Assembly: GCA_009780015.1 (NCBI GenBank)
Contig: WRAW01000001.1
Location: 78,012-119,202 of the forward strand
Length of the DNA stretch: 41,191 bases
Direction: 5' to 3'
Source: Defluviitaleaceae bacterium
Lineage (GTDB): Bacteria; Bacillota; Clostridia; Lachnospirales; WRAA01
The stretch's first letter is position 1. The number at the start of each line of letters is the position of its first letter. The position numbers and the translations under genes were made by a program. This document shows positions 17,776-41,191 of the stretch, one piece after another. Under the pieces are notes generated by a model. It was not told where the DNA came from, did no database searches, and worked only from the letters and a program-made list of their open reading frames with translations.

Positions 17776-18513
17776 TCACAGCATCTTCGAGATATCCTTC
17801 TTGAGCCTTGATATAATTTTCTTTTCCAAGCGCGAGATATAGGACTGGCTTATTCCCATCGTATCCGCGACTTCTTTTTGTGTCATTTGCACGTCGCTGC
17901 TTCCGATCCCGAAGCGCATTTCGACGATTTGGCGCTCACGTTCCGACAGGCGCGATATTGCGTCGGTCAGGAGGGTTTTGTCGACCTCATCCTCCAGGTC
18001 TTTGTAGATCACATCGACATCTGTTCCTAATATGTCGGAAAGTAGCAGCTCGTTGCCCTCCCAGTCGACATTCAGGGGTTCGTCGATGGATACCTCTCCC
18101 TTTGTTCGCGTGTTGCGGCGCAGGTACATCAGTATTTCGTTCTCGATGCAGCGTGACGCGTACGTGGCCAGCTTTATCTTCTTGTCCGGCTTGAATGTGT
18201 TGATAGCCTTGATTAGACCGATAGTCCCTATCGAGATTAGGTCTTCGACGTTTACGCCGGTATTCTCGAACTTGCGGGCAATATACACCACCAGCCGGAG
18301 ATTGCGCTCGATAAGCACGGACTTGACGTGCAGATCGTCGGCCGTTCCGAGCCGCTCCAGCAGGACGGCCTCTTCTTCGGAACCGAGCGGCGTGGGCAGC
18401 ACTTCGCTGCCGCCTATGTAATATATCGTATCTTCCTGACCGCCCTTAATCCTTATCAGCAAGCCAATCAGCTTCTTCTGTATAGTTACGCAGGCTAATT
18501 TTAACGCGTACAA
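17776..18513 (-). CDS. sigE: RNA polymerase sporulation sigma factor SigE (pro-sigma-E)
   Basis: [64 protein letters not shown]-terminal pro-sequence; adjacent to spoIIGA. Confidence 0.95.
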
Positions 18514-18532
18514 TGCTGACCCTCCTTACAGG

Positions 18533-19435
18533 TTAAATATTCAAAATCTCAGGGTTAAGCAACCCTTGGTAGACTCCCTTACCCGACAGCTTGCTGTTGT
18601 AGATTCCAACAATTATTTCGCGCAGGCTGGCCTGCTCGTCGTCGCCGCGCCGGATTTCTACGCGGTCGCTGCGAAACCCGATCAACATTCCATTGCGCTT
18701 GCCAAGCGCCGAAAACGGTATCATTCGTATTCGCCCGACGAAGCCGCTGTCCAGGCTGCCGTCGGTGACGGCGTTCAGGTCGTCTTCGCGGTTCTCGTAG
18801 AAGATGAGCTTTATCGGATCGGGCAGAAACGGCTTAACCACGGCAAACTCGGCAATTATCACCGGCGTGTTGCTTATCGGATCAAGCAGGCTGTGCCCGG
18901 TGTCCAGCAGCGCCTTGAAGCACTGGCGTTCACCTCCGACAAAGACTTCGACGTCGTACAGGACTTGCCTTCGCACCACGCGCCTAGAGTACCAGCCTCC
19001 AAGCAGCTTGACGGCGATGTAGAACACAGCGGTCGAGGCAAGCAGCATGTTTAGTGAGAAGCTTTGCGGAACCTGGCCGGCGGCAATCAGCAGCGTATCA
19101 AAGTTTGTGAAGCTGAACAGCGCCAATACCATCCCGCCCAGCGCGAAAGCAAATATGTATGAGAAACCCACCAACTGCGCAAGCTCACGCGCGCGCTTAG
19201 GCCGAAACGCGATGTACGCGCCCAAGCTTATAATAAGCACAGAAGCAAGCACTCCCGTCAATGTGGTGTGCGGAACGAACACTATAAACAGTACGTACAG
19301 TAGCGCCATCACAAACGCTCCGGCTCCAAGCCTGAGCCACCGCAGCTTCCTGCCGGCGAACTGCCCGGCGCCCCACAGGATGAATAAATCCATGAAGAAG
19401 TTGACCGCAAACACAACGTCGGCATATATTTCCAA
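18533..19435 (-). CDS. spoIIGA: Sigma-E processing peptidase SpoIIGA
   Basis: Five-TM N-terminus; aspartic-protease-like LLDTGHSLLDPISNTPVIIAE; immediately upstream of sigE. Confidence 0.93.
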   Translation of the reverse strand: MEIYADVVFAVNFFMDLFILWGAGQFAGRKLRWLRLGAGAFVMALLYVLFIVFVPHTTLTGVLASVLIISLGAYIAFRPKRARELAQLVGFSYIFAFALGGMVLALFSFTNFDTLLIAAGQVPQSFSLNMLLASTAVFYIAVKLLGGWYSRRVVRRQVLYDVEVFVGGERQCFKALLDTGHSLLDPISNTPVIIAEFAVVKPFLPDPIKLIFYENREDDLNAVTDGSLDSGFVGRIRMIPFSALGKRNGMLIGFRSDRVEIRRGDDEQASLREIIVGIYNSKLSGKGVYQGLLNPEILNI

Positions 19436-19455: not shown

Positions 19456-19523
19456 ATTATACATAACGTTATTGTACAATTATGTCAATTTGTAGGATGA
19501 GTGTAACAAAAAATTCGATAAAA
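19456..19523 (-). promoter_or_regulatory. Candidate spoIIG-type promoter with upstream Spo0A box
   Basis: Reverse strand: TTTTATCGAAT (19513-19523; one mismatch to TTTTGTCGAAT), TTGACA (19483-19488), 21-nt spacer, TATAAT (19456-19461), GGAGG upstream of spoIIGA. Confidence 0.6.
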
Positions 19524-19692
19524 TTCGCGCTTTCAAGTCGTTTAAAACTTTCACGATTTAAAAGTTTGTACAGTCTAAGTAGTTTTAGACAACGAAACGC
19601 GAACAAATTCGTGTTTTCAAGTTGTCTAAAACTTTGCGAATGTAAAAGTTGGTACAATACTAAGTAGTTTTAGACAACGAAACGCGAACAAA
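19524..19692. repeat. Tandem array of two ~84-bp foldback units
   Basis: Units 19524-19607 and 19608-19692; each runs TTCGyGyTTTCAAGTyGTyTAAAAC...GTTTTAGACAACGAAACGCGAA; the same unit recurs at 41069-41191. Confidence 0.85.
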
Positions 19693-19723
19693 GACGCCAA
19701 TGCAGCATCGCATGGCGTCTTTC
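19690..19723 (-). terminator. Terminator downstream of the DUF1540 gene
   Basis: Reverse strand AAAGACGCCAtgcgatgctgcaTTGGCGTCTTT. Confidence 0.75.
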
Positions 19724-19732
19724 CGGCAAGGA

Positions 19733-19885
19733 CTATTCGCTCTTAAAGCTTGCGCACTCCGTCTGATGCATATTCTGCGCATTAGGTATGGTGTTTCCGA
19801 CTTCGATGCTTGAAAGTGAGCACATCCTAGAATCGGAGTTGTACTTGCAGGAGCTAACATTACACATGATCTGCTGGGAAGCCAT
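19733..19885 (-). CDS. DUF1540-family small Cys-rich protein (50 aa)
   Basis: Not in the ORF track in this frame. MASQQIMCNVSSCKYNSDSRMCSLSSIEVGNTIPNAQNMHQTECASFKSE* with GGAGGTGT SD upstream. Confidence 0.85.
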   Translation of the reverse strand: MASQQIMCNVSSCKYNSDSRMCSLSSIEVGNTIPNAQNMHQTECASFKSE

Positions 19886-31237: not shown

Positions 31238-31254
31238 TTCATCAATCCTTTCTA

Positions 31255-31463
31255 AGAACCAGCGGTCAATAACCGAAATGCTGGCTAGAAGCGGCGATTT
31301 TTCGCCAATCTAGGAAGCGGCGACGCACCGTCCCCGCGAAGCCCGGTTTTGGCTTCGTGGGGTGGACTGAGCGTACCCATAGCGGTACGCAAGGAGCCGC
31401 TGACGACGAGTGGCGGATAATCGACCTTCTAGACGGCGTTGGGCGTTATTGACCGCTGGTTCT
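31255..31463. repeat. Foldback element 3 (209 bp)
   Basis: Termini AGAACCAGCGGTCAATAAC / GTTATTGACCGCTGGTTCT; core GCGTACCCATAGCGGTACGC at 31371-31390; extra arm CCCCGCGAAGCC..GGCTTCGTGGGG at 31332-31362. Confidence 0.88.
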
Positions 31464-40989: not shown

Positions 40990-41068
40990 AATACCCCCTT
41001 TTATACAGGTTCTTGCATCTGGGTTCAGATTTTTCGACTTTTAGAACTTGTGTTCAATAACGCTCAAA

Positions 41069-41191
41069 TTCGTGCTTTCATGTTGTCTAAAACTCTTGCA
41101 ATGTAAAATCGGTACGATACTAAGTGGTTTTAGACAACGAAACGCGAACAATTTCGTGCTTTCATGTTGTCTAAAACTCTTGCAATGTAAA
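41069..41191. repeat. Second locus of the tandem ~84-bp foldback unit, truncated by the window
   Basis: TTCGTGCTTTCATGTTGTCTAAAACTCTTGCAATGTAAAATCGGTACGATACTAAGTGGTTTTAGACAACGAAACGCGAACAA followed by a second identical start at 41153. Confidence 0.85.

Follow-up and report, generated by a model that had tools for sequence, protein, structure and literature searches.

Why does the short intergenic space between spoIIGA and a DUF1540 gene of a Defluviitaleaceae bacterium hold two tandem foldback units, which recur at the far end of the same stretch of DNA? The original prediction, made from the letters of the window (the whole stretch of 41,191 nucleotides analysed, from contig C1), regarded the two places as arrays that could switch between hairpins within and across units. 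A genome-wide search shows a dispersed repeat family of the mobile type instead of a pair of regulatory arrays, and here it is proposed, with a probability of about 0.75, that the 84-bp unit is a non-autonomous mobile foldback element (MITE/REPIN-like) that would be acted on in trans and would also amplify in tandem.

The foldback unit and its arrays

The predicted tandem arrangement of ~84-bp foldback units was borne out, with two units at 19521-19689 and one and a half at 41066-41191 (Table 1). The 23-mer GTTTTAGACAACGAAACGCGAAC has three exact occurrences in the window, against none expected from shuffles. Array 1 begins at the T-tract of a terminator-like hairpin downstream of the DUF1540 gene, and the AA after its last unit is the same dinucleotide as the opening AA of unit 1. 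Contig C136 begins with the same unit type as the one in which array 2 is cut. The spoIIGA and sigma-factor genes beside array 1 also place sporulation genes in this host.

Table 1. Positions of the array features and flanking genes within the window
Feature	Position	Strand	Remarks and basis
spoIIGA and sigma-factor gene	17776-19435		flank array 1
Array 1, unit 1	19521..19604	+	84 bp, upstream of spoIIGA; aligned with 29 other units
Inter-unit junction palindrome GTTTTAGACAACGAAACGCGAACAAATTCGTGTTTTCAAGTTGTCTAAAAC	19582..19632	+	51 nt; DNA fold -16.3 kcal/mol, z -6.0
Array 1, unit 2	19605..19689	+	85 bp, loop longer by one A; alignment of units
AA after last unit of array 1	19690..19691	+	comparison of flanks at all loci and of empty sites
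Intrinsic-terminator-like hairpin downstream of DUF1540 gene	19693..19719	-	sequence
DUF1540 protein gene	19733-19885		50 aa; flanks array 1
Host MITE (MITE2), left terminal inverted repeat TTAGAACTTGTGTTCAATAACGCTC	41041..41065	+	array 2 inserted into MITE2
Array 2, unit 1	41066..41149	+	sequence repeats and flank comparison
Array 2, start of unit 2	41150..41191	+	cut by the end of contig C1

The consensus unit is AAATTCGTGCTTTCATGTTGTCTAAAACTTTCACAATGTAAAAGTTGGTACAGTCTAAGTGGTTTTAGACAACGAAACGCGAAC. Its stem comprises 22 pairs with two small bulges, both in the left arm (C; AT or AA), around a loop of 33 nt, and the conserved arm reads TTCGYG.TTTC..GTTGTCTAAAAC together with its partner. Variable columns make up 14 of the 47 in the arms and 23 of the 33 in the loop (P = 6e-4); recognition ends around a free spacer would give such a pattern. 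Substitutions in the stem, read on the + strand, gave G-U in about seven events and A-C in three, a bias that hints at a structured single strand and is statistically not significant. No double compensatory changes were found among the stem pairs of the units, and a covariation proof of RNA fails because the divergence is too small to have produced them.

The statement that no coding explanation exists held, but not through stops in every frame: a unit length of 84, or 3 x 28, leaves two reading frames open in most units. Synonymous counts through the arrays (16 against 14.2 expected, and 13 against 14.3) show no excess, and a coding role was rejected despite the two open frames.

Single units fold more strongly than their shuffles (RNA z -3.0, -4.7 and -5.3), as claimed for a foldback, and the pairing predicted across the unit boundary is real, forming a 22-bp stem with small bulges and a 4-nt closing loop; the palindrome at the junction of array 1 likewise outfolds its shuffles. 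The partition function favours, for two or more units, a nested topology: the outermost arms, left in the first unit and right in the last, pair with each other, and a separate hairpin forms at every junction. For locus L002 (+ strand) the outer arms with the junction hairpin reach a probability of 0.98 as RNA and 0.92 as DNA, with similar values at L004, and the junction hairpin of the divergent window array reaches 0.81 (RNA) and 0.75 (DNA). Alternative pairing within and across units is thus possible on paper, but the predicted ensemble holds no balanced switch; modelled as isolated strands, the arrays have one dominant folded state. Since outer arms and junction hairpins dominate, an array is predicted to fold like one larger element.

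A dispersed family with empty insertion sites

Searches by BLAST and a covariance model of the draft genome of the organism (2.77 Mb, 183 contigs, 83.6% complete) found 30 full units at 16 loci and four further degenerate loci, so that the unit is far from confined to the two places in the window, a restriction that was named among the grounds for refuting the original prediction. For the count of loci, contig ends of one unit type were treated as a single locus (C1 with C136, and C119 with C89). The end of C1 and the start of C136, as well as the ends of C119 and C89, share locus-specific unit types, and these pairs are suggested by their sequences to be chromosomal neighbours. The count of units per locus that had been proposed gave one, two, three or at least four, showing that copy number varies between loci, and six contig ends lie within arrays.

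MITE2, a larger palindromic element with ends TTAGAACCTGTATTCAATAACGCTC, is host to several arrays. In eight or more of its copies the insertion point is empty and has the sequence GCTCAACGCC or a near variant, whereas filled sites read GCTC[AAATTCG..CGAAC]nAACGCC; an insertion therefore adds precisely n x 84 bp and has an AA at either side. The flanking AA fits a 2-bp target-site duplication, with the full right AA missing at L010, L017, L018 and L022, and it could be a duplicated target or be partly derived from the element. In the sister genome, spoIIGA and the DUF1540 gene are adjacent and the array is absent; other orthologous places there are also free of units, and some hold different MITEs. 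A target preference for small palindromes, suggestive at L005, L018 and L003, was rejected as not significant (permutation P 0.09).

An abundant, larger palindromic MITE, with ends TTAGAACCTGTATTCAATAAC and several hairpin modules, lies at about 31252-31395 of the window (C1:109263-109406) and also at L043, L034, L036, L040 and L045; most of its copies are without 84-bp units and some have them. The inner hairpin modules of the MITEs are common to this species and that of the sister genome (G001: L155-L164, L169, L171), where the terminal inverted repeats around them are of several kinds, among them ATAGCCATTCAACTTGAAAACACTCCAA, GAGCCTGTTCAGTATC and TAGACCTCTTTCGAAACTAG. Judging from these comparisons, a single MITE core seems to have acquired different ends, as though it were served by different transposases.

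Relatives of the unit were found neither in the one other genome that the genus has nor in 37 more distant relatives, nor in 391 genomes of the class and 392 of the order (overlapping draws), nor in phage and plasmid records. An exact-pattern scan of viral contigs and genome contigs found no unit, and against Rfam the units had no match at the gathering score and only weak chance matches. The 84-bp family thus appears to be species-specific. The closest named homologues of the RNase Y of this host are from MAGs of Clostridiales, Anaerotignum and Defluviitaleaceae, which makes it probably an uncultured bacterium of that group.

A proposed mobile foldback element and the alternatives

In its 84-bp length, its 22-pair stem between the ends, its occurrence at about 20 loci and its freedom from coding selection, the unit matches a MITE in the general sense of a short, dispersed, non-coding element with inverted-repeat ends. 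Here it is proposed that the conserved arms serve both recognition, probably as a single strand, and folding, the 33-nt loop being free to drift, and that a recombinase supplied in trans would insert the unit exactly at the dinucleotide AA, with larger MITEs and the A/T tracts next to terminators as frequent targets.

Units of one array are more alike (identity 0.948) than in label shuffles (0.895; reached by 0 of 2000), and neighbouring units are identical in L002 and L009, a likeness best read as local duplication or homogenisation. Neighbours of mixed subfamilies occur in L003, L005 and L007, with the order in L005 opposite to that in L007, which fits either the insertion of separate units where two units meet or an exchange among loci. 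The mixed arrays and the identical neighbours together point to two routes of array growth: a further unit would be inserted at the unit boundary, or neighbours would be duplicated by slippage or unequal recombination. Because the outer arms are the same at any copy number, an array would form one enlarged element, folding and perhaps moving as a body.

No long element carrying the unit ends, as expected of an autonomous partner, was found among the matches at E<=10 in the 83.6% complete genome. Searches of the same genome gave no match for a Y1 (RAYT-type) transposase (PF01797), with positive results in 6 of 14 control genomes, and none for a Y2 transposase, for which the controls were likewise without match. 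The recombinase gene could lie in the missing 16% of the genome. The IS110 element of contig C121 was rejected as a parent, as its gene, the only IS110 gene of the genome, has no unit-like ends. This gene (L166) encodes an IS110-family transposase of 428 aa at a contig end, unlinked to units, and the sequence after it resembles part of a group II intron.

An unlikely extension of this proposal is that the foldback targets itself: the boundary CGAAC^AA^ATTCG would be the preferred site for the next unit, used by a non-Y1 recombinase that recognises single strands, and arrays would be a regular product of transposition that moves as one folded body.

It is more doubtful still that the arrays act as a regulatory RNA or DNA switch, in which hairpins within and between units alternate to tune neighbouring genes and the TACAAT of the loop is an active promoter. 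The folds are strong on both strands, and array 1 lies ~86 bp upstream of spoIIGA and adjoins the terminator-like hairpin. However, the genes beside the loci are unrelated (flagellin, FabH, PP-loop ATPase, DUF3795, spoIIGA), the orientation of the arrays relative to genes is not fixed, the family is species-restricted and a single topology dominates the predicted ensemble. The promoter part of the original prediction fails because TACAAT, the -10-like motif, occurs in a single unit out of 30, namely unit 2 of array 1; a conserved -10 promoter in the loop was therefore rejected.

Slightly less probable than the switch is passive carriage, in which the units, like boxB in BOX elements, are spread only by larger MITEs and solo arrays are remnants. 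Two MITE types that differ in their ends (one at L004, L006, L013, L017 and L023, the second at L003) do carry units in the same place, immediately internal to the terminal repeat, but at the remaining loci, about ten by inspection, units occur without any MITE end, and the array at the spoIIGA site is extra sequence relative to the sister genome with no MITE ends flanking it.

A plain minisatellite, made by local slippage duplication of an immobile unit, is very unlikely. It would account for the identical neighbours of L002 and L009 and for the locus-specific unit types. Against it, single units and arrays are scattered over some 20 unrelated places with the same sharp boundaries, and empty sites were found as well; the dispersed single units refute it as the sole explanation. 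An assembly artefact of the metagenome bin is barely credible, since the six contig ends within arrays of this 183-contig draft are just such places as real repeats break short-read assemblies, many arrays lie within contigs between unique flanks, and the units of different loci are not the same. The non-autonomous mobile foldback element remains the preferred reading.

Relation to known repeat elements

BOX elements, BrickBuilt and REPIN clusters, taken together as analogues, cover most features of the family one by one, and none of them fits fully because no RAYT was found, fixed terminal modules are absent and the unit is a complete foldback. BOX elements of streptococci are intergenic mosaic mini-elements of the form boxA-boxBn-boxC with a variable number of boxB, have open frames running through them and, in S. 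suis, combine one and the same boxB with different terminal modules (PMC3049150). The present arrays are likewise intergenic mini-elements of a Firmicute with a variable module number, strong folds, open frames and different terminal contexts; unlike BOX, the 84-bp module is itself a complete foldback and also inserts alone without terminal modules, and several loci have no common terminal modules that would be the counterpart of boxA and boxC.

A REPIN is a small hairpin in which a variable spacer separates two conserved ends in inverted orientation, occurring as singlets and in tandem clusters, and in SBW25 the tandem units of the clusters include flanking sequence (PMC3116915). The 84-bp family shares the inverted conserved ends and variable spacer, the singlets and head-to-tail clusters of near-identical units, and the intergenic, non-autonomous character. 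In contrast to REPINs, no Y1/RAYT gene was detected in this incomplete draft, the stem foot has no GTAG/CGTC tag (the feet here are AAATTCG and CGAACAA) and, unlike in the SBW25 clusters, the units abut exactly. BrickBuilt of Porphyromonas gingivalis, a minisatellite in a MITE, has 19 copies and is species-specific (PMC4596501). It resembles the present family in being species-restricted, with about 20 intergenic copies, and in having tandem repeats within a mini-element that is presumed mobile in trans, but its 23-bp units lie between a fixed leader and tail, whereas here 84-bp foldbacks occur without either.

Two other classes were rejected. The 33-nt loops of all loci are homologous to one another, unlike the unrelated spacers of a CRISPR array, and the unit ends CGCGAAC and AAATTCG, by inspection, do not match the RYYYAAC ... 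GTTRRRY of an integron attC site.

The family provides a clean example of a mini-element from an uncultured relative of the Lachnospiraceae, in which the mobile unit, its tandem growth and the precision of its insertion, n x 84 bp at AA, are directly visible from the empty sites. Arrays of this kind also break assemblies, as at the six contig ends here. The recombinase, if found, would explain the formation of tandem hairpin arrays where no RAYT takes part.
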